From contig JAMYWO010000121.1 of the NCBI GenBank assembly GCA_024220525.1, positions 51,057-72,333 of the forward strand: a stretch of 21,277 nt of DNA, in the 5' to 3' direction. The notes below the pieces were generated by a model. That model saw only the letters and a program-made list of their open reading frames with translations, was not told the origin of the DNA and did no database searches. Below are positions 1 through 21,277 of this stretch, piece by piece. This DNA comes from Cochliopodium minus (Eukaryota; Discosea; Himatismenida; Cochliopodiidae). Both the position numbers and the translations under genes were made by a program. Numbering within the stretch: the stretch's first letter is position 1; each line of letters begins with the position of its first letter.

Positions 1-1070
1 AACTTTCAGTTGAAGTCAAAGTATGATATGTTAAAAAGAGAGATTAAAATTATCAAGAAAGATATCTCTTCCAAAAAGGATCATCTTCCAAATGATCAAA
101 ACACAAAAGGTGAATAAAAAATATTTTTATATTTGATTAAAAGAATATTTATTAGTAATTTTTGAAAAGAAAAGGGTTTGATAAAGAAAGAAGAGGGTGG
201 GGAAGTTGGTCTAAATAAAGAGCCAATTCTTTTTTCCTTAGCTTCTGAAGGAAATAACGAAAAAGAAGAAGTTGATGTAAATAAGGAAAGAGTTGATGTA
301 GAAAAAAAAGAAAATATATGTATTGAAGAAGACAACTACAACGAGAGTAGCCTTGATGTTAATAAACAAACAAGTGAAATTTTAGAAAGAAATAATCAAA
401 GGGTGAAAGAGGTAATCAAAGAAGAAAGTAAACCCAAAAAAATCATCAGTACAAATAACGACGAAAATGAGTTAGTAGGATTTGGAGATAACAAGGTCGA
501 TGAAGATATACTTCATGAAGACAAAGTTGAAAATTTCCAAAAAAAAAAAATCTAATTTTTTAATTTTAATTTAATTTTTTGAAAAAAGCACTGGCTATTG
601 AAACTTTGGGAAAAAATTTCGGAAAAAATGCCTGATTTCGAAACAGCCAAAAAGGAAGCTATCTTTGAAGGTGAGTTACAGAAAGAAGGAGAAATTTTTA
701 AGACCTGGAGGTACAATTCAAAATTTTTTTTCTCTTCATTTGTCATTTTCAAAAATAATCCTTTATTTATTAGAAGTAGATATTTTTTATTGACAAAAAA
801 TAATATTTATTATTATGTTCCCGAAAATAACAAGGTTAAAAAAAAAAAAATTTATCTTAAAATAAAAAAATTCACCACTCTATTTTGTATTTTTAGCCAA
901 AGGGTCGTATCATCATAGATGGCTCGAGTGTAATTGAAAAGTTGAAGCATACTTTACATCAACATTTGTTTAGGATTTATCATCCTAAATATAGGACTTT
1001 CTATTTAAAAGCAAGTAATGACATTATTGCAAATTCTTGGATCGAAAACATAAAAAATACTTTAAAATAA
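1..1070 (+). CDS. PH-domain protein, 5' end cut by window edge
   Basis: Five exons read through in frame: 1-109, 170-525, 589-710, 774-834 and 897-1070, ending in TAA. All introns are GT-AG, 60-63 nt long, and every phase matches. The C-terminal ~100 residues form a pleckstrin-homology domain: a beta-1 start FEGELQKEG, then KTWRSRYFLLT (the WKKRWFVL position), IYYYVPEN, PKGRIIIDG, and a closing helix with the conserved Trp in NSWIENIKNTLK. PH domains usually bind phosphoinositides or proteins at membranes. The visible N-terminal part is Lys/Glu/Asp/Asn-rich and likely coiled coil or disordered, with no other recognisable domain. The end of exon 2 is the least certain boundary: the GT at 526 was chosen because it gives a 63-nt intron, but the GT at 495 is also in phase. 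An AATAAA lies at the stop (1071). The gene converges on a minus-strand fragment ending at 1167. Confidence 0.85.
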
Positions 1071-1166
1071 TAATAAATAGTTTGTAAATGAGTTAAAAAA
1101 TATTAAAAAAAAAAAAAATGAAATGGAAATCAAAATTTAATATATTTAACCGATCTATAAAGACTT

Positions 1167-1509
1167 TTATTTAATCAGATCAGTAAAGATTCTATTCCAT
1201 TTTCGAAAATGGTCTTTTGCCTGATTCGTATAGTTGTTCATCCAAAAACAAAACCAATTTTTTGCTTGAAGATTATATCCAAAGAAATCTTGTTTTGATC
1301 CAATAAATGAATTTAATAAATGAATTTAATAAATATGTTTCAATACAAACACCATTAATAAAAGGAATGCAAAGCGGGATTGAATTCTGTCCAAAAAAAA
1401 ATGCAAGATCAACTAGATTTATACACGAATTGTTTTTACTATTATTATACAAATTACATTTACTGTGAAACGATAGCCAGTGCCCTTGTTCTTCGTCATT
1501 CTTATTCAA
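1167..1509 (-). pseudogene. Unrecognised gene fragment with a frame-breaking 13-bp tandem duplication
   Basis: Read on the minus strand, 1509 down to about 1335 is open and protein-like (for example EEQGHWLSFH and IPLCIPFINGVCIETY). From about 1314 down to a TAA at 1169-1167 another frame is open and also protein-like (QAKNWFCFWMNN, HFRKWNRIF). A perfect tandem copy of 13 bp at 1302-1314 and 1315-1327 lies exactly between the two frames. Thirteen is not a multiple of three, so one unit would leave a single frame. No GT-AG intron was found that bridges the change. The 5' part is lost at the N at 1583. A possible small intron inside the upstream part (a GTAAATG donor near 1455) is unresolved. 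The product family is not recognised. The damage could be a real pseudogene mutation, a length polymorphism or an assembly error in a short repeat. Confidence 0.4.
1302..1334. repeat. 13-bp direct tandem repeat, two units plus partial third
   Basis: The unit AATAAATGAATTT is present twice without mismatch, followed by the first seven bases of a third copy. It sits inside the minus-strand fragment at 1167-1509, where the extra unit shifts the reading frame. Confidence 0.9.
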
Positions 1510-1582
1510 AAAAAATATTTTTCGATTTTTTTCTTTCTTTTTTGCAAAAAATATTCATTTTTTTCCTTTTTTTTTTTCACAA

Positions 1583-1583: not shown

Positions 1584-1776
1584 GATCAATTTGGAAGCAC
1601 CTTTTTCCCTTTTCCCTCTTTTAAAAGGAATTATTCAAAAATCAAAATTTAAATCACAACTTATTTTATTCTATCTCTTTTCAATTAAAATTTTATATTA
1701 AATTTTCTTCAAAATTTAATGGCTGAAAAATTTATTATAAAATTGTTAAAAATAAAATAAATACAAAAAAAATTCA

Positions 1777-3687
1777 TTATTTGGATTCAGAATTCTTCTT
1801 TTTCTCCTTATCTTTGTCCTTCTTTTTATCTTTTTCTTTTCTATCTTTGTCTTTTTTATCTTCTTTTTCTCGGTCCTTTTGTTTATCTTTTTTTGGAATT
1901 TTTGAATCACGAGTAATGAAACCTCCAGTGCTCTTAGATTTCCAATTTTTTTCGCAAGTTTTGGAACCTTCATCATCACTAATGGGGAGAGAAACAACAG
2001 AAGATTTTTTTCTCTCAGGACTGCTGGGACTAATAGATTTGGTAGGACTATTTGGGCTAGAATCACTGCTGTTTTGTAAGGGAGCATAATTAGGGAGTTC
2101 ATCTTTGCTAATGTTGTTGGAGTTCCCCGTGCTTCCTTTCTTCTTGTGAGGAGAAGATTTGTTTACTTTGTTCGTTTCGTTCATATTCTTGGATAATCTT
2201 TTCTTTTTGTCTTTTTGGTTGGGAGAACTGGAAAGAGAAGAAAGAGCGTTGAAGCTGAGCGTAGGTTCAGAGGAAAAGAGATCTTTGTTTTCTTCTTCTT
2301 CGAGTTGCAACAAACCTTTTTTGAAAAGTTGAAAAGAAGAAGAATAATGGTTTTGAATTCTCTCCACTGTGTTTCTGAAATCCCAACAATCACCTTCTCT
2401 CAAATCAAAAATGAAAAAATAGTTTTCGGAAGAAACTTTGTTGTTGGATCCAGGAGGGGTGGGTATTAATTTCTCATTGCTGGAAAGCATGTGGAGATGA
2501 GAAGGATGTAAGAAATCGCTACTGTTTGGTGATTTTGGTTGAACGGGAAGAGAAGAATGATGAGAATGTTTTTCGCTGTTCGATGTTCGTTTCAATGCAC
2601 CAGAAAATGTATTATTATTTACATTATTTAAATTATTATTTGATTTATTATTTACATTAAGAAGATTTGTATTAGATGTGGAGATAATCGAATTGGAAGA
2701 GGTAACATCTGAGTTATCTATCGAGATATTGGTGGTAGTGATAGAGATATTAGTTTTAGAAAGAGGGATATCAGTGTTATCATTTTGATTGGGAAGATGA
2801 TTGTTAGAAGAGGAAAGAAAGGGGAGATCATGGTTGGAAGTGGAAATGTTAGTTCTGGAATCTGTAAGAAGGGAAAGATCAGAGAGAGTGAGAGTATCAG
2901 TGGAAGAGATGAGAGAATCAGTGTTTGTGGTGGACAATTTTAAACTTTGAGAAGAAGAGTCAACACTGCTGTTCTCCACAGTCATGCCCCTCACTTTCAA
3001 TTCCTCCCTTTCATCTTGAATAGATTGATTGTCATTGTTGGCAGTACCAGAAGAAGAAATATCTTTTTTGTCATGTTTGTGAAGAGAAAGGAGGATGGGA
3101 GAAAAAGTAAAATCTTCCAATGAATTTGAAAAAATGCTCCTCACATTTCCCGAGTTATAACTGGTACCACTGTTGTCGTTGTTGTAGCCGAAAGTGTCGT
3201 TGGTGGAATTGGTGGAGAAGAGAAGGGAGTTCGGGGGGAGAATGGAAGGAGTTTCACTAGAAAACTGATTGAAATTGTTGGAAACGGTAATGTTGTGAAG
3301 GGAGGAGGATTGGTTCACGTTTCTGTTCACTGTTGGAGAGTTTGTCAATGAAAGAGACTTTGATCTGTTGAGATTTTCTTTGTCGCTGATGTTTTTTTCT
3401 TCATTATAATTACCACTACCATTAATATTGTTGTTGTTATTGTTAATTAATTTAGGAAGAGGATTGTTTCTATAAACAACGTTGGAACCTTCTCCACTGA
3501 GTCTATTATTGATGTTATTGGTTTGTTTGGGAGAATGAGATTGTTTAGGAGAATGTTTATTGCTTCCATTCCCACTTCCATTTTTGGGAGAAAAAGAAAG
3601 GGTTTTGGGAGAATGGTAAGAAGTAGAGGTGATGGTATGCAAAAGAAGGTTGAGGGAAGAGGGGGTGGAAGAGGGGAGAGTCTCCAT
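1777..3687 (-). CDS. Long low-complexity Ser/Asn-rich protein, function unknown
   Basis: One uninterrupted frame of 636 codons runs from ATG (3687) to TAA (1779-1777). The frame is open up to the N at 3694, so the true start could lie further upstream in missing sequence. Residues 1-400 are rich in Ser, Asn and Thr, with repeated SPK sites (SFSPKN, KHSPKQ, SHSPKQ), as in a disordered, proline-directed phosphoprotein. A compact, non-repetitive stretch around ENYFFIFDLREGDCWDFRNTVERIQNHY is the only part that looks folded, and I do not recognise it. A second SP-rich section follows, and the last ~45 residues are almost entirely Lys/Asp/Glu, a charged tail that often marks nuclear or RNA-associated proteins. 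The motif ELPNY followed by SP-rich sequence also occurs in the SH3-RapGAP protein of this window, which may be a shared docking motif or chance. Confidence 0.7.
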   Translation of the reverse strand: METLPSSTPSSLNLLLHTITSTSYHSPKTLSFSPKNGSGNGSNKHSPKQSHSPKQTNNINNRLSGEGSNVVYRNNPLPKLINNNNNNINGSGNYNEEKNISDKENLNRSKSLSLTNSPTVNRNVNQSSSLHNITVSNNFNQFSSETPSILPPNSLLFSTNSTNDTFGYNNDNSGTSYNSGNVRSIFSNSLEDFTFSPILLSLHKHDKKDISSSGTANNDNQSIQDEREELKVRGMTVENSSVDSSSQSLKLSTTNTDSLISSTDTLTLSDLSLLTDSRTNISTSNHDLPFLSSSNNHLPNQNDNTDIPLSKTNISITTTNISIDNSDVTSSNSIISTSNTNLLNVNNKSNNNLNNVNNNTFSGALKRTSNSEKHSHHSSLPVQPKSPNSSDFLHPSHLHMLSSNEKLIPTPPGSNNKVSSENYFFIFDLREGDCWDFRNTVERIQNHYSSSFQLFKKGLLQLEEEENKDLFSSEPTLSFNALSSLSSSPNQKDKKKRLSKNMNETNKVNKSSPHKKKGSTGNSNNISKDELPNYAPLQNSSDSSPNSPTKSISPSSPERKKSSVVSLPISDDEGSKTCEKNWKSKSTGGFITRDSKIPKKDKQKDREKEDKKDKDRKEKDKKKDKDKEKKKNSESK

Positions 3688-3693
3688 CTTCTT

Positions 3694-3694
3694 N
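3694..3694. other. Single-N scaffold join B/C
   Basis: A lone N separates the 5' end of the minus-strand low-complexity gene from sequence that begins in mid-exon of an unrelated plus-strand gene. The 77 bases immediately to its right reappear as the last 77 bases of the window. Confidence 0.8.
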
Positions 3695-5553
3695 TAGTAA
3701 AATGATTGAAAATGCAAACAGTTTTTACATCACATTTAACGGATATACACCAGATCCTTCATTTGAATCAGATACAATTCTAAAATGGAGTTGTAAAAAA
3801 TTTAGTAGTTTAGAAGAAGAAAATTCCTTTTTGGAGAACGAACTCGATACTTTTGTTGAAAACGATTTAATTGCAAGATTACTTTTTGGGTAATTGTTAA
3901 CCTTTAAAATACTTTTAATTATTTTTTAATTCTATTTACTAAATTATAATAATTTTTTTAAAAAATAAAAGATTTTTCAAAAAGCTTATTGTTGAGCCAT
4001 CTCCTGAACAACATGACTTTTCTTATGCTGATAAAGGAAAACTTCTTTGGTTTGAATTTAGTTCTCAAATCACAAGTCTGTTGGAAAAAAAAAAATACAA
4101 TTTAGATAAATTTGTGAAAGTTTTGAACCAAATTTGGAGAGAAGAAGTAGTTCAAATAGATAAAGAAAATAAAATGTTCACTTTCTTCAATGTTGATGAT
4201 TTGGCAAATGTAGAACCAGAAAATCTTAGAATGATCTATTTCAAGAAAATCAAGTCCATAGCAAACTCGGGAAAACATGTAATCTTAAAAACAATTACTT
4301 CGATCAATCCCAAACATATGTGGCCTAATAATGAAATTAAACTGGGAAAAGTAATAAAGTTTTCAAAATCAAATATTTTTTGGGAAGCTTTCCAAAATTA
4401 TGGTGATCAATTCGAAATTTTTGAGTTTAGTGTCTTTCAATATTTGAAAAACGAAATTAATCAAGAAAAGAACAAAGGAAAATGGAGTTTTGTGAAAGAA
4501 AATTTGGATGATCTCGAGAATTCTCATTTTTGGCAGCTGGTCAAGTCATTACTTTGGTGCTCTGGTTTCCACTTCAGGGCTATACAATTTTACTTTGATG
4601 AAATGATCAAATCTAAAATTTATACTCCTGATCGATTTAAAGACATCATTAACATTACTCTTCCCAACGTTAGTGTGTTTCAAACAATCCACTGGGAATG
4701 GATTGCATTGGCTGTTCTTCAACTTCCCTTTCATTTGGACGAAAAGATTGATAAAGAAGAGATATCTACTTTCTTAATAAATGGGTTGTTGATTCCTTAT
4801 CAAAAAATTGAATCTTATGAGTTTTTCTCCAATATCCTTGTCAAATCAGCTTATTCCACTTGTGGCTTTCTATATTCATTTTTAGGAAATTTAAGCGGAA
4901 GTGATCATTTGGATCATTTGCAATTTTTGCTAGATAACATAATTTTGAATGCATCGACCCACTACGATCCAAAACATTTTGAAAAATTCGTTGTTTATCA
5001 TCTTTGCATGGTTATGTTTCTCAGATCTTATTTTGCACTCACTAATTACCAAACAAAATTCAAGGAGCCAAAATCAATTCCACTCAGCCTTTCTAATTTG
5101 TACAATCAGAAAACCATTTCTTTGGATCTTCTTTTTAGTGGAATCAAAGTTAAAGGAAGAAATGAATTTTCCCCAAAAAACTGCTTGATAAAACTTTCAA
5201 AAGAAGAGAAAACAATCTTCTTTACTGTTGATGAAGATTGGGGTAGAAATAGATCATTGAAGAATAGTTTTGAAGATAAAGAATTCAAAATGAACACTTT
5301 TTATCTTTCTAGTTGGGACAAACAAGCAGCTATTGAGGGTTTTATTGCATTAGAAACTCACGAGGGGGAGATATTGTACATTCTTCTTCAGTGCAAATTG
5401 GGCTTGGACACATCATCCAAAATCTCTTCATTTTCAGAGGAAAAAGTTATAATTAATCTTGAAAATGCATCCAAGTTTATGGAAGAAATGAATAAAGAAT
5501 GCAAATTACCAAAAAAAATGGATGAAACAAATACAATCTTCTTGTATTTTGCT
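3695..5553 (+). CDS. 3' portion of a Crinkler/RHS-like P-loop ATPase with nuclease-like C-terminus (partial)
   Basis: Two exons are visible, 3695-3889 and 3972-5553, joined by an 82-nt GT-AG intron in phase 2. Neither a start nor a stop codon is present because both ends are scaffold joins. The segment begins at SKMIENANSF, in the middle of a domain. KMFTFFNVDDLANVE looks like a Walker B strand (hydrophobic run ending DD), so this is the second half of an NTPase module. A long helical region follows (HFWQLVKSLLW, TIHWEWIALAVLQLPF). Near the C-terminus, AAIEGFIAL then EILYILLQCKLG resembles the acidic residue plus (E/Q)-x-K core of PD-(D/E)XK nucleases, which is the usual C-terminal domain in Crinkler and RHS families. 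These family calls rest on motifs and layout, not on a search. The gene looks intact where visible. The first 77 bases match the right window edge exactly, so it is probably the continuation of the gene starting at 20306. Confidence 0.6.
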
Positions 5554-5554
5554 N
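5554..5554. other. Single-N scaffold join C/D
   Basis: A lone N lies between a coding exon cut in mid-codon and a 9-bp AT microsatellite. Neither the + gene on the left nor the minus LRR gene on the right continues across it. Confidence 0.75.
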
Positions 5555-5640
5555 AAAATAAATAAAATAAATAAAATAAATAAAATAAATAAAATAAATA
5601 AAATAAATAAAATAAAATAAATAAATAAAATAAATAAATA
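5555..5640. repeat. AT microsatellite, 9-bp unit
   Basis: The unit AAAATAAAT is repeated about seven times and then degrades into 4- and 5-bp variants. It marks the left edge of contig D and is a plausible reason for the assembly to break inside the LRR gene. Confidence 0.9.
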
Positions 5641-5702
5641 AATACAATTAATAAAATAATTAAATAAATAAATAATATAAATAATTAGGAAAGGGGGATT
5701 AC

Positions 5703-7465
5703 CAATGTTATTTTCACTTAAAATTAAACTTTTTAAAGATTTGTTTCCTTTTAAAGCAGCGGAGATCGCTATTGCTCCTTCTTCTTCCAACTCATTCCCT
5801 GTCTATTTAAAATAACCAAATAAAAAAATATTTATAATCAGATTAAAATTAAAAATATATTAAATTAAAAAAAAAATGATAAAATAAAAATAATAAACGA
5901 ATAAAAAATTGAATAAATAAAAAATAATAAAAAAAGAATTTTTTTTTTAATTGATAAATAAAAAATATATTTTTAAAAGAATAAAAAATAAACAAAAAAT
6001 AATAATTTTTTTTTTGTGGAATTAAAAAAAAAGAAAGAAAAAAAGGGAACAAGGTCGAGAAGAGTGAGGCAAGTAGAACGAAGAAGACCATTGATCAACA
6101 TGGCAACACCTTCACTGGCGAGAAGATTCCACTGAAGTTGAAGAGTTTTGATGAGAACACGTTGATGAAGAAGGATCTCTCCGAGTGTTTGAGCTCCCAT
6201 AATCTGCATGTCATTCCCTCCAAATGCCAAAGAAAGGGGTTGGGAATGGGGAAGTTTAGAAAGTTCAATCACCATCTGTGAATCATCCAATCCCTGATCC
6301 ACCAAATCTATCGCCAACAACCCTTTTTCTTCTCCTCCCCCTCCCTCTCCTCTCTCTTCTTCTTCTTCTTTTTCTTCCTCCCTTGGTGATTCTGTCTTTT
6401 TGGTGTTACTGGAAGGAGTGGTTTTGGTGGGGGAGGTGGTGGGAGAGGAGGAATCACTGTTTTCCAAAATGAATTGATTTAATTCATCTTCAAAATTGGA
6501 ATCATTGCTGCTATTACCACTAGTATTGTTAGAATTGCTTGTATTGTTTGTATTGCTAATATTGTTATTATTTCCTTCTATTTTTACGAGGAGAGGCTTC
6601 GTTTTTTCAGAGACACTCACATTTTCTACTTTGGTGAGGGTGGCAGTGTTGACAGAAGTGGCGGTGGTAGTGGAAGAGGTGATAATAGAATTGGAGGAAA
6701 GAACAGTCAAAGAGGGAATTTCTATTTTGGTTGATTGAACACTCACCACTTTTACAGAATTAGAAGGAGAAATACTGATAGGGATGGATGTATTGGTTGG
6801 ATTTACTGTTTTTATTTCCAAATTGGATGGTTCAACAACTTTTATTTGATTGGATGGTTGTACATTTATTACTTTAATCTGATCATTGGATGGTTCCATA
6901 ACTTTAATTTCATTGTTGTTGGAAGATGGGAATTTAGGCTTTGCTTCAGTAATTAAAATTTTTCTTGGATTAACATTTTTATTGATAAGCAAATCTCTTC
7001 TTGTTGGTTGTTTTGGTTTGATTTGATCATTTCTCTTCAAAACATCCATCACCTTTTTATCTTCTTCTGCTTCTTCTATTTCTGAAGAAATTTTATCAGT
7101 CATAAGATTCAAGTTCTTTCTTGGTAATAAATCTTGTTGAGTCTTTGTATATTTTTTATCATTTGTTTTATGTGTTGCTGTTGTTCTAATTCTCTTCACA
7201 TCTTTTTTGGATGCTCTTTGTACAATATCTTTCAAATTTTCCTCACTCAAAATTTTATCCAATTCATTCGTACCCATTCTTTGCAAATCACTAATTTCTA
7301 TTTCCCATAAAAAATAATTAAAAATTTCATTTATAATTTTCTATTTCAGGTTTATATTTTACTTTTCGCTTCAATATTTATACTTATTGTAGAAAATTGT
7401 TGGGTTTTCTTGGTTTCCAAATTTTCATTTGTGACATTAACTATTACAATCTCTTTTTTGCTCAT
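5703..7465 (-). CDS. Leucine-rich-repeat protein (NLRC3/ribonuclease-inhibitor type repeats), 3' end missing
   Basis: Three exons are visible on the minus strand: 7465-7384 (ATG in an A-rich context, MSKKEIVIVN), 7297-6051 and 5802-5703. Phases agree (1, then 0), and the last exon ends at a GTAATC donor in phase 1, so more exons are lost beyond the contig edge. The splice at 6051/5802 joins LTLLDL to TGNELEEEGAIAISAAL and restores a perfect repeat, followed by LKSLILSENNIG; its donor GTTCCC is weak. Earlier repeats are LSLAFGGNDMQIMGAQTLGE and LKTLQLQWNLLASEGVAM. Such 28-residue LRRs form a horseshoe that binds proteins. The N-terminal ~330 residues are disordered, with a degenerate repeat (IKVMEPSN, IKVINVQPSN, IKVVEPSN, IKTVNPTN) and a Glu/Gly-rich tract just before the LRRs. 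The partner is unknown. It is divergent from the AMP-binding gene, with 147 bp between starts. Confidence 0.8.
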
Positions 7466-7612
7466 TTTTTTTATATTTTATTTTCATATTTTATACTGTT
7501 TTTATTTCAAGCCATTTTATAAATCAGATATCTTTAAAATTTGGATAGATCTTTGCTTTTAATTTTTGTTCAAATATAAATTCTTGAAAACAAAAGAATA
7601 TATAAAAAAAAA
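7466..7612. promoter_or_regulatory. Shared divergent intergenic promoter region
   Basis: These 147 bp separate the start codons of the LRR gene (minus) and the AMP-binding gene (plus). The region is about 85% A+T, with TATA-like stretches (TTATAAAT near 7517, ATATAAA near 7601) and A-runs directly before both ATGs. Its promoter role is inferred from position only. Confidence 0.45.
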
Positions 7613-9482
7613 ATGTTTAAAAAGAAAATATCTATCAAGAAAGAAACAATAAATAAAGTATTTTCTTATAGATATGCTTCATCTTTGAGTGGAAAGAAAA
7701 AAGATTTACAAAACATCACAATTGGCCAATTTTTGAATAATTATTCCCAACAAAATCCTTACAAAGATTGGTTGAGATATTGCCCATCAAAAGATTTAAA
7801 ATGGACATATGATGAATTTAATGTAAGAACTCTTCAAAAAAAAAAAAATATTTATATAAAATTTTTTTTTATCAAATATTTTTATGATCTATTCTTTGAC
7901 AATTACTCGCAGAAAATTATAAATACATTTGCCGAAGGATTTTTGGATTCAAGAGGAAGAGATGTTTTTACATCAATTCTTGAAAATGATACAGATAATT
8001 TGATCACTCAATTCGCATGTGCTCGTGCAAACATTAAATACGCATTTCTACCACCAAATACAGAAAAAGAATTAGTCAAGTAAAAATTTAAAGAGAGATT
8101 AATATATATTATATCTTGTTATAATATCAAAAAATAATTTTTTATTGATTGATATAATCCTAATATTCTCCTTCTCATATAAGAAAAACATTGCAAGAAA
8201 CAAATTCAAGAGCATTGATTGTAAATGAAAAACATAAAGATAGAAATAATTTTAAAATGGTGGAAGAGATTGTACCTCATTTGAATGAATGGCCTTTTGG
8301 AGTACCACTCAAAGTGAAAGAATATCCAAATTTGAAATTGATAATCCAAACAGCACACGAATTCAGGAAAGGATTCGTCAGTTTGAGAGATTTAAAGATT
8401 AAAAATGGGATTAGAGATCCATTGCCTTCCATCCAAAAACAAATTTTACCAACCAGTGTTGCTTCTGTTTTTTATGGAAAGGAAGAAAAAGGAATCGCTT
8501 TTTCTCACTCTTCTCTTGTCAACAATTCTCTTTACTTTGCTGAAGCTGTTGGATTGGGTTGGGAGGACAGAGTTTTGGTAATTTTTTTTTATCCTTCATA
8601 ATCTATCTCTTCTATTCTTATTATTTAAAGAAATAAAAGATACCATTATGGATGGTTTATAAAAGTAGTATATTAATTTATATCATCCTCAATATTCAAA
8701 TATGAATTAAATTATATAACACATTTTTGTCTTTCAATTTATTGGAATTCCATCTTTAATCTTTTCGAATTTAATTCTTTTAATTATTTCAAATTTAATT
8801 TGGTCCGTGCAATTTGTTAACTAAAAAAAAAACATTTTTCAAATAGGTTGACTTGCCATTTTGGAAGAGTTATGGACAAACAGCAGGGTTGCTTTCTCCA
8901 TATTCTTCACTATCTCTCGTTGTGATTGCATCTCCTGTTTTCAATGAAGAAAAAACTCTGAAGAAAATTTTTGAAGAAAAAATAAACACTCTTTTCCTCA
9001 CTCCTTCTCAAGCTCTTCTTCTCATTCAACATCCTCTCTTTTCTTCTTTCAAAAAAGATTCTCTTAAAAAAATAGTGTTGGTGGCTTCTACCAACGATAA
9101 ATTGAATGCAGAAGAAATATTGAAAGTGAAAAACTCTTTTCCTTCTCTTGAAAACTTTTTCTTTTCTTTTTCTTTGGATCATTTTGCTGGAATTTCTTTT
9201 CTTGGAAAAATTAACAACAATGACAAAGTTATTTCTCAAAATGACTCTTCTTCTACCCCTGCTGGACATTTATTGCCAAACATGGAAGCTAAAATTGTTG
9301 ATCCTTCTGGCAAATCTCTTCCTCAAGGAACAAAAGGGAACTTGCTTCTTAAAGGTCACAACCTCTTTTCTGGTTTCTTGATTTCTCAATCTTTGCAAAC
9401 TCCCACTCTTGATTCTCAAGGTTTTTTCAATACTGGTTTAAATGCTTCTGTTGATTCTGATGGATTTTTCTCCATTTATTAA
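7613..9482 (+). CDS. Truncated, degenerate AMP-binding (acyl-CoA synthetase-like) protein, probably mitochondrial
   Basis: Four exons (7613-7822, 7913-8079, 8184-8577, 8847-9482) give 468 residues with matching phases. ATG follows an A-run. The N-terminus is Lys/Arg-rich without acidic residues until KKETIN and runs into FSYRYASSLS, resembling a mitochondrial presequence. The body follows the ANL-superfamily N-domain, closest in feel to ACSF2-type medium-chain acyl-CoA synthetases: TIGQFLNNY, KWTYDEFN, LITQFACARANIKYAFL, ALIVNEKH, FWKSYGQTAGLLSPY and GHLLPNMEAKIVDPSGKSLP. The catalytic motifs are eroded. The P-loop TSGTTGxPKG position reads FYGKEEKGIAFSH, the YGxTE motif is replaced by SLDHFAGISF, and the YxTGD motif reads NTGLNASVDSDGF with the Asp lost. 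The protein stops right after it, so the C-terminal lid with the catalytic Lys is absent (the family is usually 550-650 residues). It is likely a pseudoenzyme or structural subunit. The frame is clean with ordinary splice sites, so decay by neglect seems less likely. Confidence 0.8.
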
Positions 9483-9687
9483 GAAATTAAAACCATTTAT
9501 ATTTCAAATCTAAAAGAATTTTTGATATCTTCATTATTTATTTCTAAAAATCTATAATTCTTTTATTTCAAACAAATTGCACATCTTCCTGAATGTTTTT
9601 TTAAAAAGAACATTTATTTATTTATTATTACAAAGATTTTTCCAGTTTTCAAAAGAAAAAATTATAAAAAAGAAGTTAATTAGTTTT

Positions 9688-12600
9688 TCAAAACATGTCG
9701 ACCATTTCTTTCAAGTATTTTTTGTTTGTATTTTTTAACTTTGCTCTGAAATCAACAGCATGCATGGCAGCTCTTTCCCCATTGATTCCTTTTCTTAACA
9801 ACCAAGAACGAAAAACTTTTTTGCTCGTTTCTATTTCCTCTTGTGACTTCTTTTTCGGGATTTCAAAAATAGGAGGGAAATGTAATTGTGGTTGATAACA
9901 AGGAACACCTGGTTTAGAAGAGACACCAACTCTATACCTTGAATATTCTTTTTATTGTAAAAATAAATAAAAAGTAGAAAAGAATAAACAAAATTTACCC
10001 TCATCTGAAGAAGAATCTTTTTCAACGACGATGTATATATCTTTTTAAAAAATTTTAAAATTTTTCAAAAAATTGGATTTTTTCATACAATTGAATTGAG
10101 ATCGGAGCATTTTAGGATCAAAAGGAGTGTTTCCTTCTTTAAAAATAAAATTTACAACATCATTTCCTATGTGTCTTTTTCTTTCCAACTTTTGAGGATC
10201 TTCAGGATGAAAAGGTAAAAGAGTTGAAACATGAAACATCACTTTAAATTTGTCTATTTCTGCATATACGGACTCTTCTCCTGTGTTTCCGTCTTTTTGA
10301 TATCAAATTAAATTCAAATTTAAAAAAAATTAAATAAAAATAAAATAAAACATGAAAAAATGATAAATATTGAAATAAAATGAAATAAAACATGAAAAAT
10401 GCTTTTTTTTTTTTTTTGAATAGAATTAGATGTTACTTTTGGTGTCAAGACCTCCTCTAAAATGTTCCCATCCGTTTAGTTTGATCCTTTCTCCCAAAAT
10501 GCCAATGAAATCATCAAAATCAGGTGAACTTTCTGAAAAATAATAAAAAAAACAAATAAAATTAAAATAAAAATAAAAATAAATCAAAAATAAATAAAAA
10601 ATAAAAATAAATCAAAATAAAGAAAAATGAATAAATTACGATTGGAAAAAGCTTCATTTTCAGATTGAGATTCCTTGAGATAAAGGACACCAAATTTGTG
10701 GTTGAGATGGATGTTAGAGTTTTCAAAATGAATGAGTTTGGGAATGATGAGAGAATTGTCTGCTTTTTTCCATTTAACTTTTTCAAATTTTTCGAGGAGA
10801 AGGGGTTTGAGGGAGGGAAAAGGTTTTTTGCCAGTAACAGTGAGACGTAAATTGTGATTTTTACAAGTTCGAATCAAAACTTTGAAGATGTTTTCTCCCT
10901 TTTTCACTTTTTCTTCATTGCTTGATATGGAGACGACGATGGGTCCTTCTTTCTCGCTTAGTCCCACGTAGGTTTTGTGTTGGTAATCTTTGAGATGTTT
11001 GGAGAAGAAGGGGATGGTGAGGTCATAATTGAACCATTTCAAATATTCGTTTTCTATTTCCTTTTCCTCTTTTTTGTTTATTTCCTTGTAATCCACCCCC
11101 TCACTATTTTTTCCTCCTCCAGAACTTCCTTCTACTCCTGTGCTCCCTACTCCTGTGCTCCCTACTCCTGTGCTTCCTACTCCCGTACTTCCTGTTCCTG
11201 TGCTCCCTACTCCTGTGCTCCCTACTCCCGTGCTTCCTGTTCCTGTGCTTCCTAATCCTACTCCAGAACTTCCTCCAGTGCTTCCTCTATTGATTATTAT
11301 ATTATTATTATTATTAATAGGATTGTTGATTGTATTGTTTGTATTATTATTGTCAATAGCATTGTTCGTATTATTATTGTTTTTATTTTCGTTATTATTA
11401 TTGTTATCATTACTAAAAGTGTTCTTGTTGCTATTATTATCATTACTAAAAGTGTTGTTATTGTTATTAGAAGTGGAAGTATTGGTATTGTTATCATTAT
11501 TGTTGTTGTTAGAAGGAATGGCTTCAGAAAGAGGATCAAAAAAAGGAATACTACCTGAATCACGAAAACTGCTGTTTCTTATCTTTTCAATCTCTCTGCT
11601 CTCATTCTTTTCTTCATTATTGTAATCATTAACTTTATCTTTATTACCATTTTTTTCATTTTTGTCATTATCATCTTCAATATTATTATCTTTCTTTTCT
11701 TCAATATTTTTATTATTATTTTTAATATTTTTATTATTTTCTTTAATATTATTATTATTTTTATTATTTTCTTTAATATTATTATTATCAAGGTCGGTAG
11801 ATTGAAGATTTGGATCATCAACATGATTGTTAGATTGATCGTTGGAGGGTTGGTCATTAGAAGAAGAAGAGGAAGAAGAGGAAGGAGGGGCGGAGAATAT
11901 TTTGTTGAAATTGGTGTGAGAAAAAAGAAGAGGAGAAATGAGGTTCCTGTTTCCATTTTCTATATGATACCCCTCCGTTTTATCAATCAACATTGTTGGT
12001 TTTCTTTCATCTTCCGTATGTTCCTAAAATATAAGAACAGTATTAAAAATATGTTTATTGAAGTTAATATTAAAAAAAACATTTAATAATAAAAATAGAA
12101 AAATAAAATTAAAATTGATTTAAATTAAAATTGAATATCAAAAATATAAAAAAAAATTAATTTAAAATTAAATTTTAAAAAAAAATTAATTAAATAAAAC
12201 TGAATATCAAATTTAAATTATTTTAAAATTTTAAAATTTAATCAATTTATTTTAAATTTGAAAAAAATAAATTGATTTAAATCAAAAATTAAAAATTAAT
12301 TTATATTACATCATTCCAATTAAGAGAAGGGGAAACTTTGGAACACCAATATTTTTCGATGTTGAGTCTATTGGTGAGGAGGATGTTTTCTTGGGAGTTG
12401 CCCCCCAAAATCTTTTCGAATTTGGTTTTTGATTTTTTGTTGAAATTAGGAAAACGAAGAGAATTGTAAGCACGAGGAGAATTGTTTCCACTGCCTCCCT
12501 TTCTCTCCGAATCTCCATTCTCCGTACCATAATGATGAAACAAAGGAAGATTAGAAGGAGAAATACTGAGAGAAGGATGATGAGTTGTAAAAGTGACACC

Positions 12601-14821
12601 ATTGGTGTTCCCGTTCTTATTTCCGTTCTTTTCTTTGTTGGTTTTTGTTTGGCTTTTTTTGTTTTTTCCGAAAAACTTGTTGGGAGAAGAGGAAGGGGGA
12701 GAGGCGGTGGGAGAAGAAGAAAGATTGCTCACGATGTGGGGAGATCGGGATTGAGGTGAACTGAAATCTTTACTGATGTAGTTGGGAAGTTCTGTTTTTA
12801 AAAGAGCCAACAAATTATCAGAAGAACTCGATTTTTTCAACACCTTTTTCTCCTTTGCTCCTTTATTTCCTTCGTTGTTTCCTTCTTCATCATTTCCGTT
12901 CAAAATGCTTTGCTCTTTTGGGCTTCTGTTGGAGAGGGGTTGATATTTTGGAGGGTCCGTTTGTTTGTTTTCTGTTTCAAAGTGTTCTTTGAGATTGTTG
13001 GTTGAACTCTCTTTCATCAGTTTGTCAAACAATTTGTTTTTTTCTTTTTCGTTGAGGTTTTTGTTGTTTGGAGAATCAATTATTTCAATCATCTTTTTTA
13101 TGTTTTCTTTTTTCATACTTGATTTTCCTCCGATTTTGAGAGAAAGATGTTTTTTGGTGTTAATCTTTTTTTTCAAAACTTTTTCTTTTCCTTTTTTAGG
13201 AGAATCTTTGTTGTTAAGAGAGATAGAAAAATCAGAAGGAGGAGGAGTTTTTGTATCTTCTTTGAAGGAAATAGAGCTTTTGGGTGAATCTCTGGGAGAG
13301 CTCTTTGGTGAGTTTTTCGGCGAAGAGGAAGATTTAAAAGAAAGAGACAAAATGGGAAGGACGTGGGTAGAAGGAGAGCCATTCTTCTTTAATCCTTTCT
13401 TTTTAGAATCTACACTGGAAGGTGAGTTTGGATCAGATTTAGAAGAGGTTCTTGATGTCTTTGATTTAGGACTCCATTTAAAAGTGTTGCTAGAAGAATT
13501 AGGAGAAGGAAGATTAGAATCAAGAATAGAAGGGTTATGAGGAGAAGTAGGTGAAGTAGGAGGTAATTTCTGCTTAAAAGAATGAATTAGATTGGGATTT
13601 GAACTAAAAGTGTTTCTCGGAAGAGCCAGAGATTTGGGATTGGGGGAGGGATCTTTTAATAAATTGCGAAGACGAGGAGAGTATAATATGGGATCACTGC
13701 TTGGACTGTGCGAAGTAGTTGATTTTTTAGGGGAGGAAGAGCTATCTGAATTTACTTGGAAATGAGATAGATTGTGAAATGTGCTTGTATGTGTGTTTCC
13801 TTTATTGAATCTTGGAGAATAACAATCTGAAAAAGATCCCCTCGTTTTTGGTGATTCTATTTTGTTTTGAATATCCAAATTAAGAGATTTGATTGATGGA
13901 TTCTCTTGATTTATTTCTGTTTCATTCAATTTCTGCAAGTTATAGAATTTCCCTATTTCATTGTTTTTCAAAAGTTGTGATTTTCTCATATTATCTATAG
14001 AAAAAATTGATTAGAAACTTAAAATCACAAAAGATTTATGCAAATCTTTTATCAAAAGCTATTTATCAGATTATATTACCTGTTTGATTTTGATTTTTCT
14101 TTTTATCTTCTTTTTCTTTGAGAAAATTGATTTCCTTATTTGATGATTCTTCTATTTTCTGTTTGATATTTGGTTGATTTTCATTTTTTTTGAGAGAACC
14201 AAGATTTAATTTCAAAGACTCTTTGATGTTGGGAGATGGATTTGATAGCTTTAATTGATTTGTTTGATTTGGAGCGGTTGTGGTGCTTTCTGATTTTTCA
14301 TTGCTCTTCTTTTTGATTTTTCTTTTAACTTTTGGTTTATTATTGTCAGTATTAATTCTTTCTCTCGATAATGAAGAAGATCTATGCCTAATCTTTATAT
14401 TAACAGTATTATTTGTTACTGGATCTTTATTATTTCCATCTGAATTTGTATTTTCTGTGGTTGCATTCATCATTAAAGCGTTATCTGAATTCCTGCTAAA
14501 TGTAGTTCCCTCTTTGTTTGTATCCACTTCAGATGATTGAATAGGAGGCATTGTATTTGTTTTTTTATACCTCTTTTCTGGATGATATATTTGAACAAAA
14601 TTAGAGGGAAAATATCCAATCTTTCCGTTACATAATCCTTTCCACCAACATTTTTCTTCACTAATTTTGGTATCTTTTACAAGAGTTATTTTATCTCCTT
14701 TTTTGATATTCAAATATTTTTCTGATGATTTGCTGAAATCAAACAGAGATATAAATAATGTTCCAACTTTATGCTGAGATAATGTATTTTTTGTTTGCAG
14801 ATCTGTTGAATCTGATTCCAT
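9688..14821 (-). CDS. SH3-domain RapGAP protein, 1470 residues, seven exons
   Basis: Exons on the minus strand are 14821-14080, 13994-12310, 12023-10640, 10532-10437, 10292-10089, 10040-9999 and 9947-9688; all phases fit and the total is 4413 nt. Residues ~18-80 are an SH3 domain: FISLFDFSKSSEKYLNIKKGD (ALYDY box), CWWKGLCNGKIGYFPSNFV. Residues ~85-1130 are disordered: SP-rich and basic, then Asn-rich, then eight GSTGV/GSTGT pentapeptides. From ~1135 comes a Rap/Ran-GAP region: HKFGVLYLKESQSENEAFSN, WEHFRGGLDTKNGNTGEESVY, IMFHVSTLLPF-like KVMFHVSTLLPF, and LERKRHIGNDVVNFIF. The catalytic Asn thumb (N1346) and the nearby His (H1343) of Rap1GAP/SIPA1 are conserved, so it should stimulate GTP hydrolysis by a Rap-type GTPase, with the SH3 recruiting it to proline-rich partners. 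The separate-looking SH3, middle and GAP frames join by good GT-AG introns (the largest 286 nt). Its 3' end converges on the AMP-binding gene. Confidence 0.85.
11133..11255 (-). repeat. 15-bp coding minisatellite in the RapGAP gene
   Basis: About eight near-identical 15-bp units (on the + strand ACTCCTGTGCTCCCT with few substitutions) encode tandem GSTGV or GSTGT. The repeat stays in frame. Its GC content is well above the neighbouring AAT-codon runs. Confidence 0.85.
11290..11475 (-). repeat. Asn-codon (AAT/AAC) trinucleotide-rich tract
   Basis: Runs of AAT/AAC on the coding strand encode a polyasparagine-rich linker (NNNTNNAIDNNNT and similar) in the RapGAP protein. A second such tract lies at about 11690-11790. 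Typical replication-slippage sequence within a disordered region. Confidence 0.75.
12024..12309 (-). other. 286-nt AT-rich intron of the SH3-RapGAP gene
   Basis: It starts GTAATATA and ends ATATTTTAG. Phase 0 joins NWND to EHTEDERK. It is over 90% A+T with no coding signal on either strand. This is the largest intron of the gene and the one most likely to make a gene finder split it in two. Confidence 0.7.
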
Positions 14822-14989
14822 TTTTTATTTATTAAATTTGAAGAAGGATTTTAAAATAAATTGCCACACAATACTATTTACATATTAAATCTTTGATAAC
14901 TTCCACCAAATCTCATAATTAACCATCAATCATATATTAAATTTTGTTCTTTAAAGTTTAAATAAAAAAAAAAAAGGAATTGAGTGATC
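14822..14989. promoter_or_regulatory. Shared divergent promoter region of SH3-RapGAP and WDR92
   Basis: These 168 bp separate the two start codons, are strongly AT-rich, and include poly-A before the WDR92 start. No specific element is recognised. The role is inferred from position. Confidence 0.45.
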
Positions 14990-16346
14990 ATGATTGAGAT
15001 AAATAATTATATTCAACATACCACAAATTTTGTTTCATTTGATATCAAATGGATGCCATCCAGTTCTAAAATTGTTTCAGTGGGAAGATATCCAAATAAT
15101 AATGGTGTTATATCTTGCTTTGAAATGAAAAAGGATAAATTGCAAATAATACACGAAAGTGAAAAGAATTTTGTAAGTGATTTTCCAAGAATAAGATTCA
15201 AAGAGAATTTTTATTGAATTTTAGCCATTTAAATGTTGTACTTTTGGTGCGTCATTTTTAGATGAAAGATATATTGCAACTGGAGATTTTTATGGACAAC
15301 TAGCTCTTTGGTAAATAACTCAATTTTCTTTTAATCAACTCAAAAATATCTTTAATAAAGGGATATTCAATCAAATCATACAGAAATTCCTTTATATTAT
15401 ACAAATAAACACAAAGGTAATCATTAAATCAACTTGAAAAGCAAAGATTGAATAAATTACATTTTTTTTAGGAGTGATAAATTGTATTGATGGAATTGGA
15501 GGAGGACAATATGAATCAAATAGAAAAAATTCACCAGAATTAGGTAAAACCATTAAAGAATAAGATCACAATTGACATTAAAATCTTTTTTTTTTTTTTC
15601 AAAAAAAATAGTTACAAGCGGAGAAGATAAGAAAATAAACGTGTGGGATATCAGACAAAAAGAAAAACCAGTTTCAGAATTCGAGGGAAAGACAGATTGT
15701 TGGACAATTTCATTTATTGATGATTTAAATGAAAGTAATAGATACGTAGGTTGTGGTTTTTCAGATGGGACAGTGAGTGTATATGATTTGAGAGCTAACA
15801 AACTTTTTTCTACTTTTTCTTTTCCTGATTCAAAAGGGATTGTTTCTCTTCAATTCAATCCTTCTCCTTCTTCTTTATCCTATAAATCTTTGATTGCCAC
15901 CTCTGCTGATTCTCATGTTTACTCTCTCAACTTTTTCGATAATAACAAAAACGGCAACAATAAAGACAAGAATAATAATGATTTTAAAAAACAAATTTTG
16001 AATGAGTCTCATCATTCCACTATTTGGAGTAATTTTTATTTATTTTAAAAACCAACTTTTTAAAACTTTGATTTTATATATTTTCCTTTAAATTTTTACA
16101 TTTCTTTTTTTTAATTAAGGTGTCAAACATCTTCCTCAAAATAGTGATTATTTTATTACTTCAAGTGGAGTGGGATCTTTGCAGCTTTATGAACAACAAA
16201 AAGGAAAAATTAATGCTATCACTTCCAAAAAGATTTCAAATTCTATCCCTTCTTTTGATTGGTCTCCTGATAAAAAAGGTTTATTCTCATTGACCGATTT
16301 TAAAAATAAAATTATTGTTGGCTTTGTAACAAACCTCAAAAATTAA
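14990..16346 (+). CDS. WDR92: WDR92/DNAAF10 (Monad) WD40 protein, dynein assembly factor
   Basis: Six exons (14990-15172, 15225-15310, 15361-15416, 15472-15543, 15612-16028, 16120-16346) encode 346 residues, close to the ~357 of human WDR92. Diagnostic stretches match in order: QHTTNFVSFDIKWMPSSSK, PFKCCTFGASFLDERYIATGDF, INCIDGIGG, VTSGEDKKINVWDIRQKEKP, DCWTISF, GFSDGTVSVYDLRANK, SHHSTIWSVKHLPQNSDYF and FDWSPDKKGLFS. The protein is a seven-bladed WD40 propeller that works with the R2TP/prefoldin-like HSP90 co-chaperone complex in cytoplasmic preassembly of axonemal dynein arms. A species-specific Asn/Lys insert (near NNKNGNNKDKNNN) lies in the blade 5/6 region. The first donor is consensus GTAAGT. 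It starts 168 bp from the divergent SH3-RapGAP gene and ends 196 bp before the carnitine acetyltransferase gene. Confidence 0.93.
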
Positions 16347-16542
16347 ATCAAAAAACTTTTCTTCATATTTTTTTTTTTTTTTTTCTTTTCGGGTAAATTA
16401 ACGGACTATTTCTCCGAATCTCACATTAAATTAAATTTTTTTCCTTTATCAACATCTTGAACTTTTGTTTCAAAATTTTTTCTATTTTGATCAAAATAAA
16501 AAAAAAAATTTAAAAAATAAAAAATAAAAAAAAGATCAAGAA

Positions 16543-19500
16543 ATGGAAAAACCAATACCAAGAACATTCGATTTTCAATCCAAATTACCAAAATTACCAA
16601 TCCCAACCATCGAAGAAGTAAATAAAAAAGAATAGAAAAGAAATATAAATAATTATATAAATTTATTTTATTGGGATTTTATATTTACCCTCTTTTTTTT
16701 GATTATATGAAAGACTTGCAAAACATTAATTGAGAGCTGTAAACCATTATTGAATGAAGAACAATTGAAAGAAACGATCAAATTGACGAATGAATTCAAA
16801 GAAAGTGAGATTTCAACAAAATTGCAACAAGCTTTATTGGAATATGCAAAAACACAAGAAAGTGAAGGAAAATCATGGTTAGAAGATTGGTGGTTACGTT
16901 TTGTAAGCAAAAAAACAAACGATATTCAAAATAATTTCTCTTATTTTAAAAAATCTTCTTTCTGAAAGGCTTATTTATCTTATAAAGCACCATTACCTAT
17001 CAATTCTAATTGGTATGTTTCTGTTCATCCACATCCTGCAGCCAAAGATTTTGAACATGGAGAAAAAATCGATCCAATTACCAGATCCGCCATCATCATG
17101 AGATTGGCATTGGATTTCAAATCGAAATTAGACAGAGAAGAATTACCAATCGAAATGATTGGAAAAAAGCCTCTTTGTATGAATCAAATGACTGTAAACA
17201 TCTCAAATTATTTTTATATCAACAAATTATTTCCTACTCATTTTTCTTTTTTTCTTTTCCTTCTTTTCTTTCCAATTCACCTTTTAAAAAATTTTTTTAT
17301 ATTAATTATTCTTTGAATTTTATATTTTTTAATTTAAAGTTTGTTTCAATCATATTCACTTTTTTTCTTTCCTTTTTTCTTTTTTGAGCAAATCTATTCA
17401 TTTTAATTTATCAACCAAAAAAATTTTATTGTTATCATTATTTATTTATTATTTTTTTATTTTTTATTCATTATCATTATTTTTTATTTATTTTAATTTT
17501 TATGAAAATTTTAAAAATATATTTTCAACATTTTTTTTTTGAAAGAGAATATACGGAGTAACAAGAGTGCCAAAGGAAGACGTGGACATTTTGGTAACAC
17601 ACAAAGAAAGCAGACACATGATGGTGATGTTTGAAGATCAAATTTTCATTTTTGATGTTTACAATAAAAACAATCAACGCTTAACTCCTCAAGAAATTCA
17701 AAGTCAATTAGAAAGAATTCAAAATGCTGTTTCTTCCCCTTCTTTTGAAAAACAACCTGCCATCGGTATTTATTCTCTTATTTTTAGTTTTTTCAAATTG
17801 TTTAATATTTTTCATTATGTTATTTTATTTTATTTTTATTTTTATTTATTTTCATTTTATTTTTCTTATTTTTAATTTTTTAAAATTATTTTTTGTTTAA
17901 TATTTTCATTATGTTATTTTAATTTAAATTATCTTATTATAATTTAAATTAAATTTTTATTAAATTTTTTTTAATTTTTTTTTTTTTCATAATTTATTTC
18001 AGAATTATTATTCAAAATTTTTTTTACCATTATTTTTTCAGGAAAGTTGACAGGGATGGAGAGAGGAGAGTGGGCAAAGGCAAGAAAGGAGCTTATTTCT
18101 TTTTCCCCACAAAACGCACAAAACTTGGAATTTATTGAATCTGCCCTCATGACTTTTTCTTTCGATAACTATGAAGTCCTTGATGAAGATAAGAGAGGTA
18201 CTTTTTAAATTATTTTTTTGATGTTTAATATTTTTTATCATTTTAATTTTTAAATAAATATTTTTTTATCATTTTTATTTTATATGAATATTTTTTAATT
18301 TTTATTTTATTTTTTTTAATTTTTTAAATTTTATTTTATATTTTAAATGTAGCAAAGAACTCTTTGATTGGAGTGAACAACAGATGGTTTGACAAATCTG
18401 TTAATTTCATCACCTACGCAGACGGAAACATGGGTGCCACTGGTGAACACTCACCCTCTGGTATTCTTCTATTCACATTTTTTTATTTCTATTTTTTAAT
18501 TTCTATTTTATTTTTTTATTATTTTTTTTATTATTATTATTTTTTTATTTTTTTATTTTTTTATTTTTTATTTTTTATTTTTTATTTTTTATTTTATTTT
18601 TTTGAATAGATGCACCTGCACCAGCATCCATATTTCAATGGTCATATGCATTGGAGACAAAGGAATCATACTTTGAAGTTTTGAAAACGAGAAACTTTGA
18701 AGCAAAACATCTACCTCACCCCACCCACCTCAAATGGGTCCTCCAACCTTCTTTCAACACAACCCTTGATCTTTCTACTTCCCATCTTCAACAACTCTAC
18801 AACAGCGTCGATTTGAGAACTTTTAGGTATTTTCTAAAAAAAAACTTACAAATATTTTCTTAAATATTATTTTTGTATTTTTTTTTTATTTTTATTTTTT
18901 TATTTTTTACTTTTTTTCATTTTTTTTTATTTTTTTATTTTTTTTATTTTTAATCAAATTTATTTGTGTAATTAGATTCAGTGATTATGGTACTAGTTTT
19001 ATTTTGGGCTTCAAGTTATCACCAGATAGGTAATTTTTTATTTAATTTTTTTATTTATTTTTTATTTTTTGTTTTCAAATTTATTTTTTATTTTCTTTTT
19101 ATTTTTACAGTTGGGTACAAATTGCTATTCAACTTGCTCATTATCGTTTACATCGCAGATTAACTGCTGTTTATGAAACTGGTAAAAAATAAAAAATAAT
19201 GTTGTTTTTCTAAATAATAATTGACTAAAGGATCTACAAGAGGTTTTTTCCACGGAAGAACTGAAACTGGTAAATTTAAAAATATTAAATAAAATAGAAA
19301 TGTACTTTATCTTCAATCTTTTAAAAATAAGAAATAAAAAAATAATATTATGAAAATAAAATTATAAATTTATTATAAGATCATTTTAAAAATTTTTGAA
19401 TTTCAAATTTAATCAATCATTTTTTTTTATTTAATAAAAGTGCGTAGTTTGACAGAAAAAGTGGGAATTTTTGCAAAGAAGTTTGATGATCAAAATTTGA

Positions 19501-19922
19501 CAAATCTTCAAAAAGCAAAATTACTTCAGGACGCTGTAGCATCTCACAGAGATTATTTGATTATGACAGTTAGAGGAAAGTCAATAGACAGACATCTTTT
19601 GGGATTGAGAATTATGGCAGGACAGTTGGGTGTAAAAGTTCCTCTTTTTGACAATTTTGGCTTCAAAGAATCTTCTACTTGGAGAATCAGTACTTCTAAT
19701 ATGAATCCTTCCGATTATTGGTTCTGTGGTTTTGGTCCTGCTTATGAAGATGGTTATGGCATCTGTTATTGTACAAGAAACAACCATCTCAAATTTTCAA
19801 TCACAAACTTTGTAAACAACCATGGAACTTCTTCTATCAAGTTTAGAGAATCTCTCAACAGATCTCTCTATGACATGAAATTCATGTTGTTGGAAGCCCA
19901 AAATTCTTTGTCCAATCTCTAA
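16543..19922 (+). CDS. CRAT: Carnitine O-acetyltransferase (CRAT-type)
   Basis: Eleven exons (16543-16617, 16714-16902, 16969-17193, 17546-17765, 18042-18197, 18353-18460, 18610-18826, 18976-19029, 19111-19181, 19231-19269, 19441-19922) encode 611 residues, near the 626 of human CRAT. It transfers acetyl between CoA and carnitine, buffering acetyl-CoA and moving acetyl units across mitochondrial or peroxisomal membranes. Matches in order: N-terminal RTFDFQSKLPKLPIPTIEE, WLEDWWLRFAYLSYKAP, GKKPLCMNQM, NNRWFDKSVNFI, the catalytic His region TGEHSPSDAP (His321), IAIQLAHYRLH, FFHGRTETVRS, and CoA/carnitine motifs GKSIDRHLLGLR, ISTSN and PAYEDGYGICY. All key residues are present, so it should be active. 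No clear N-terminal presequence is seen; the C-terminus ends SNL, at best a weak PTS1-like signal. Introns are T-rich on the coding strand, and exon 10 is only 39 nt. Confidence 0.93.
17194..17545 (+). other. 352-nt AT-rich intron 3 of the carnitine acetyltransferase gene
   Basis: It starts GTAAACATC and ends in a T-run plus GAAAG. It is strongly T-rich on the coding strand, with no ORF, RNA gene or mobile element visible. It interrupts the sequence between MNQMT and RIYGVTRV. Confidence 0.75.
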
Positions 19923-19982
19923 AGTATGGAGAACAAGTTCACAAATAAACATTTTAAATTATTATTCCACTTTTGGAAATAA

Positions 19983-20264
19983 ATTTATTTCTTTTCATTT
20001 TATTCAAAAAAAAATATTTTTGTGGCAATTGATCCCATTAATGATTTAAAGAAACCCATTTTTGAAAAGTTGACTCGAGAACATATAAAAATTGTGAATT
20101 ATTTGAAGAGATTAAGAAAAACTTTAATCTTCATTCGAATCGACCTCAAACATGTAGCTATTGATATTTACCGCGAGATTTCGAAACAAAAAAAGTGGGA
20201 AAATGTTGGTGAGGTAGAGATTTTAAAATTATTTATCGATTTAAATGAAAAAAAGGTATTATAA
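19983..20264 (+). CDS. Small open frame without ATG, function unknown
   Basis: The frame is open from 19983 to a TAA at 20262-20264. From the GTG at 20022 it encodes about 80 residues that look protein-like (LTREHIKIVNYLKRLRKTL, IDLKHVAIDIYREISKQKKW), rich in Lys and Ile, and probably helical. It has no ATG. An ATG in the same frame at 19926 is separated from it by one TAA (19980-19982), and no AG acceptor exists between them that would splice it out. It begins 60 bp after the carnitine acetyltransferase stop and ends 41 bp before the SAM gene. It could be a decayed gene, a gene with an assembly error near the A9 run at 20006-20014, or an exon with an unseen start. Family not recognised. Confidence 0.35.
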   Translation: MYFFSFYSKKNIFVAIDPINDLKKPIFEKLTREHIKIVNYLKRLRKTLIFIRIDLKHVAIDIYREISKQKKWENVGEVEILKLFIDLNEKKVL

Positions 20265-20305
20265 TTTTTCTAAAAAGATTATTGGGTTGAGTTTAAAAAA
20301 AAAAA

Positions 20306-21277
20306 ATGAATGAAAATGATATAGAACATAAAGAGATATTTAATTTCCTGAATTCAATCAAATTACAAAAATATTACACTAATTTTGTTGAGGGGGGTTA
20401 TATATCTTCTGAAAGCTTAGAGGATATCAACAATAATGAACTTTTGATTCTCAATATTCCATCTCCTCATAGAAAAATGATCTTAAAAGAACTTGAAGAG
20501 CAGGGAATCGTAATCAATTATATAAGAAATCAAATATTTAATTAATCCTAATCTAATCTTATTTTATTTGATATTGAAATCCCTAATCCACAAATTAAGC
20601 AGATGGCGATAAATTATTTTTCCTTATGAATTAAACAATATTAATTTTATGAACAAAATAAAATTTTTTAATATTTCTTATCCCAAATTTCTCTTTTCCC
20701 TAAAAAAATTTTTTTAAGAATTTATTCAGAATATTCTGATAATTTTCAAAAAATTAAAGACAAAAATTTTTTCCAAAATAGCTCACAGAAAAGAATCGCC
20801 CAAAGGCAAAAGAAGAAGATTATCTTGAAATAATAAAACAAGTAAAAGAGATAAATCCGAGAACAACCAAAATAGTTGACCAACAATGTTTTATTACCAA
20901 CAAGAAGACCTACAGAGATTTTAATAAACAAACATTTAGAATTCAGGTTCACCCTTCGTACCATGATGACAACGTAATTTGGGAAGCATTCATATCTTTA
21001 ATGGAATCAGCAATTAATGGGTCTTCAGAAAGAAAATTTTATTTCTTTGCTTATGGAGCATCGGGGATTGGAAAAACGAGATTTCTTGAGATGATTTCTT
21101 CATTAGCACTCTCTGGTGGGTTGCTTGAACATCTTCTTTCATTGGTGGAAGATAATGGAGCTTTGAAAAATAAAAATCTGCTCAAAAATTTAAGTGAAAT
21201 TAGTAAAATGATTGAAAATGCAAACAGTTTTTACATCACATTTAACGGATATACACCAGATCCTTCATTTGAATCAG
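20306..21277 (+). CDS. SAM-domain plus P-loop ATPase gene, 5' part, runs off the window
   Basis: Exon 1 is 20306-20509 and exon 2 is 20782-21277 (open at the edge); the 272-nt intron runs GTAATC to AATAG in phase 0. ATG follows an A12 run. Residues ~8-68 are a sterile alpha motif: IFNFLNSIKLQKYYTNFVE, GYISSESLEDINNNELLILNI, PSPHRKMILKELEEQ. SAM domains oligomerise or bind other SAMs. Exon 2 carries a P-loop after a beta strand, KFYFFAYGASGIGKTRFLEM (GxxGxGKT/S). It is preceded by VIWEAFISLMESAI, the layout seen upstream of the Walker A in Crinkler/RHS-type and STAND-like ATPases. The last 77 bases equal 3695-3771, and the frame is the same there. Without using the intron, the first exon would be a stand-alone 79-residue SAM protein, so the fusion rests on the splice call. 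Confidence 0.7.
20510..20781 (+). other. 272-nt intron between SAM and P-loop exons
   Basis: Donor GTAATCAATT and acceptor CCAAAATAG are both in phase 0. The stretch contains the fallback stop of the single-exon reading (after NQIFN) and otherwise only AT-rich sequence on both strands. Confidence 0.55.
21201..21277 (+). repeat. 77-bp exact duplicate of 3695-3771
   Basis: Every base from TAGTAAAATG to GAATCAG is identical at the two sites. The left copy begins immediately after an N and the right copy ends exactly at the last base of the window. Confidence 0.97.

Follow-up and report, generated by a model that had tools for sequence, protein, structure and literature searches.

Pieces and half genes of the window

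The window, by which we mean the whole stretch of 21,277 bases analysed here, is interrupted by three single Ns (at positions 1583, 3694 and 5554), which separate it into four pieces referred to as A to D (Table 1). Its genes and base composition suggest AT-rich, intron-bearing eukaryotic DNA. The features considered below lie at the right end of D, in C, and on both sides of C as assembled, where B ends and D begins.

At the right end of D, a frame encoding a SAM domain is followed by an exon region with a Walker A motif, GASGIGKT. An intron may separate the two, which probably belong to a single gene with the SAM frame as its first part, as judged by the predicted linkage of the exons. This gene is truncated at 21277, its 3' part being absent, and what is present of its 5' part, if the SAM frame is counted in, takes up the final 972 bases of the window. 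When the six frames of the window were searched for the pattern G-x4-G-K-[ST], its sole occurrence was at 21055 in D, 146 bases before the overlap described below, and it is absent from C. No Pfam family was accepted for the Walker A part of D, the matches to the D piece of NLRC4_HD (E 0.079 and 0.13 in two runs) and Kinesin (E 0.013) all being below cut-off. Five solved-structure matches for 20806-21276, all of them weak (best E 0.034, Monopolin subunit CSM1), were judged to be chance.

Piece C opens inside a coding frame that is identical to the frame of D in the overlap, and the 5' part of its gene is absent. The gene continues through a putative short intron into a long second exon, which is itself cut at the right end of C. 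In Pfam, the first exon (3695-3889) has no match and the second has only DUF1102, below cut-off (E 0.055 and 0.033 in two runs), while a comparison of 3979-5553 with solved structures gave no match up to E 10. A Walker-B-like stretch was spotted by eye in the second exon, and a Walker-B-like pattern matched this exon twice elsewhere; neither was used as evidence.

Table 1. Positions of the pieces, their junctions and the gene features next to them.
Feature	Positions	Strand	Evidence or remark
Piece A	1-1582		N-separated
Piece B	1584-3693		N-separated
Scaffold junction B/C, single N	3694	.	Sequence; compare the single 'n' of LINKS
Piece C	3695-5553		N-separated, 1.9 kb
First 77-base copy, left end of C	3695-3771	+	Sequence identity, piece-end comparison
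Exon fragment at left end of C	3695-3889	+	Open in the frame of 3696; putative donor GT at 3890; no Walker A
Putative 82-base GT-AG intron	3890-3971	+	Stops and negative scores in all six frames
Following exon (exon 2 of C)	3972-5553	+	527 codons open from 3973 to right end of C; cut by N at 5554
Scaffold junction C/D, single N	5554	.	Sequence
Piece D	5555-21277		N-separated
Left end of D, putative intron of minus-strand gene	5555-5702	-	9-base tandem repeat at start; putative donor GTAATC at 5702
Putative exon with weak LRR match	5703-5802	-	Pfam LRR_6; match stops part-way through the repeat
Open frame with SAM domain	20306-20542	+	Pfam SAM_1, E 9.2e-09, above cut-off
Exon region with Walker A	20782-21277	+	GASGIGKT at 21055; open until cut at window end
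Second 77-base copy, right end of D	21201-21277	+	Sequence identity, piece-end comparison

An exact 77-base overlap between the end of D and the start of C

Direct comparison within the window shows that the left end of C and the right end of D are identical at 77/77 bases. The earlier note had claimed this base-for-base identity, and it holds over exactly 77 bases; its description of the edges and of the frame is likewise borne out, one copy standing directly after an N and the other at the window end, both in one open frame (the D frame from 20782 and the C frame from 3696). Leftward extension of the identity is halted by the N at 3694, and its right edge is the window end. We compared the ends of all four pieces, in all orientations, for exact overlaps of 8-399 bases. 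The step from the end of D to the start of C is the sole exact end-to-start overlap among them, with none of 8-399 bases at any other piece end in the window. The identity has the form expected of a de Bruijn overlap, a fixed length shared by one contig end and the start of another (here both on the plus strand), with 21277 taken as the probable end of a contig.

The flush position of both copies is partly automatic, as it would arise whenever two contig ends truncate the members of an identical pair, one on the left and the other on the right. The informative points are the length of 77 and the dovetail orientation rather than flushness by itself. A chance repeat is rejected, because the longest exact repeat was 15-21 bases in 20/20 first-order random sequences of the window length, i.e., 21 bases at most versus 77. 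As for an inverted or mobile-element repeat, no inverted 18-base match to the 77-base block was listed.

Gene structure across the joins of C

The frame of D can be followed through the overlap into C. Codon scores, trained on nine other open reading frames of the window, are 0.20 for the continuing frame in D before the overlap, 0.25 in the overlap, 0.14 in C beyond the overlap and 0.19 in exon 2 of C. In all four stretches, this frame has no stops and outscores the other five. The open run of C past the overlap says little by itself, since about 21% of random 39-codon frames from the window are stop-free; in this 118-base stretch one minus frame is also open, with a score of 0.07. When the halves are compared separately, frame and gene content carry on sensibly across the join of D to C, and the D half, with its Walker A, and the C half, without one, are complementary in both respects. 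In Pfam, no known family spans or covers both halves.

The present neighbours of C fit less well. On its left, B extends to 6 bases upstream of the first Met in a minus-strand frame (METLPSS...), which we have taken as a gene start. Since B would thus end at the start of an oppositely directed gene, the absent 5' part of the gene in C would need to be concealed by the one N at 3694.

On the right of C, the minus-strand gene of D appears to be interrupted, with its next exon expected to the left of 5554. The LRR_6 match at the edge of this gene (E 0.00053; 20.3 bits, below the curated cut-off of 23.4) covers profile positions 2-15 of 24. The minus strand of C has 16 stop-free runs of at least 30 codons, the 10 longest of which contain no LRR family in Pfam. 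A loose LRR pattern has one match on this strand, at 4482, in a run that is blank in Pfam. An LRR exon could still be present on the minus strand of C if it were very short or lay within the six runs outside the scan. It thus seems that neither the junction of B with C nor that of C with D forms a coherent gene as assembled. In two of these 10 runs, there were three weak non-LRR matches below cut-off (best GET4, E 0.0033), which were judged to be chance.

The left end of D has two further features of note. A nine-base tandem repeat, (AAAATAAAT)n, occupies 5555-5608, flush with the end of the piece, and is a possible cause of the contig break. The minus-strand frame at 5703-7286, truncated at the left end of D, encodes a long low-complexity N-terminal part and has a loose LRR-pattern match at 6152.

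Comparisons with outside collections have limited reach, since these are mostly prokaryotic and viral with few eukaryotes, and null results there say little for eukaryotic sequence. The D piece gave pattern matches in viral contigs and in prokaryote genome contigs, with 0 of 6 and 0 of 36 stretches, respectively, confirmed as relatives; the same was true for exon 2 of C in viral contigs (0 of 3). There was no match to the D piece among phages or to 21001-21277 among plasmids (megablast), and a 27-base part of the repeat had no exact match in viral contigs.

Placement of piece C

We consider it likely, with a probability of about 0.8, that the 77 bases are a k-mer overlap and that C is a misplaced contig, set between B and D instead of to the right of D. 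A de Bruijn assembler would have left the k-mer overlap between D and C as contigs adjacent in its graph. This assembler was most likely SPAdes with 77 as its largest k, which is a usual value. Later scaffolding would have put C between B and D, with one N on each side, rather than beyond the right end of D. The effect would have been to split a single gene, with a SAM domain and a Walker A (P-loop), so that its 5' half came to lie at the window end and its 3' half in C. A contig squeezed into too small a space would have computed overlaps at its left and right ends alike, in keeping with the single Ns at 3694 and 5554. Among scaffolders, SSPACE writes a single n in a similar way to LINKS.

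Published accounts of assembly tools offer close parallels. In the passages of the COBRA paper that deal with contig ends (PMC10914622), metaSPAdes-type assemblers are described as leaving end overlaps of length maxK, fragmentation at such end sequences is ascribed to repeats, and the methods give 77 among the k values of a metaSPAdes run, the largest being 99. The overlap reported here shares with that description (PMC10914622) its exact identity, its end-to-start arrangement and a length compatible with a standard k. However, whereas the part of the COBRA paper concerned treats separate contigs, the two ends here lie within one scaffold, apparently in the wrong order. As for the junctions, the description of output in the LINKS paper (PMC4524009) has gaps written as N-pads and computed contig overlaps as a single 'n'. 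The three junctions of the window likewise consist of one N each, which would be consistent with a scaffolder of that type. A counterpoint is that the N at 1583 is also single, without an end overlap, so that a single N is not specific to the misplaced piece.

The proposal of the earlier note that the identity is a k-mer overlap is thus strengthened by the 77-base dovetail and by two half genes that complement each other in frame and content. The same can be said of its view that the gene order seen around 3694-5554 does not represent real synteny, given that neither junction of C appears coherent. It had also set a misplaced contig against two near-identical gene copies. Misplacement gains support from our analysis, but the two do not stand as mutually exclusive alternatives, since a second sequence may share the 77-mer. 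An unbranched path is normally merged by the assembler, and the fact that D and C were left unmerged suggests another path through the 77-mer, which could come from a second copy, from an allele or from an error path. In the assembly graph D and C probably adjoin one another, and they may have other true neighbourhoods too. The duplicated 77 bases are very probably an ordinary assembly artefact and not a biological repeat of interest.

For users of this assembly, synteny, gene models and copy counts are unreliable around 3694-5554 and at the scaffold end. If annotation picked it up, a single gene would appear there as two fragments, and the genes next to the Ns are truncated. In draft assemblies, looking for exact k-base overlaps among the pieces of a scaffold is an inexpensive way to spot misplaced contigs.

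Alternatives with a second copy

The alternative that survives best, which we nevertheless regard as unlikely, is that C is a collapsed repeat standing for two gene copies that are nearly identical, of which one would lie to the right of D and one truly between B and D. The 77-mer would still be a de Bruijn overlap, and the placement of C would be right for one copy, the 5' part and flanks of which would have been lost in the one-N gaps. Such a copy would supply the branch that a break at a shared k-mer needs, as can be gathered from the relevant part of the COBRA paper (PMC10914622), but it would do so at the price of hiding about 1 kb of 5' gene sequence (estimated from the D copy, 20306-21277) in a gap of one N, and the remainder of the gene truncated at the left end of D likewise in one N. 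This sits poorly with the single n as a sign of overlap, which it is in the output of LINKS, for one, as described in part of that paper (PMC4524009). Nor does the window contain a second Walker A, although another 5' half could be present outside it.

Somewhat less probable still is a recent duplication of the gene with SAM domain and P-loop, by which two nearly identical copies would lie about 16 kb apart, with their shared part collapsed into one contig. What bears on it here is that the identity runs up against an N on one side and the window end on the other, and that the six frames of the window, which set the scope of this search, contain no second Walker A.

Finally, two separate genes that share 77 identical bases by recent duplication or gene conversion, the length being a coincidence, would account for both copies being coding and in the same frame, but this is very improbable, as the shared length would have to match a standard assembler k by chance, one copy would be without any upstream sequence and the other without any downstream, and there are zero differences in 77 bases. 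A misplaced contig remains our preferred reading.

Other features of the window

The remaining single-N junction, at 1583 between A and B, lies beside a T-rich tract, and the ends of these two pieces do not overlap (8-399 bases). The C-terminal part of a choline/carnitine O-acyltransferase is encoded at 19440-19922 (Pfam, E 2.2e-36), part of an AMP-binding enzyme at 8853-9482, an SH3-domain protein at 14066-14821 (minus strand) and a WD40-like frame at 15572-16048. The AMP-binding and SH3 matches are above the Pfam cut-off, and the matches listed for the WD40-like frame are all below the curated cut-offs. At 11132-11228, a coding minisatellite with a fifteen-base unit specifies Gly-Ser-Thr-Gly-Val/Thr repeats on the minus strand.
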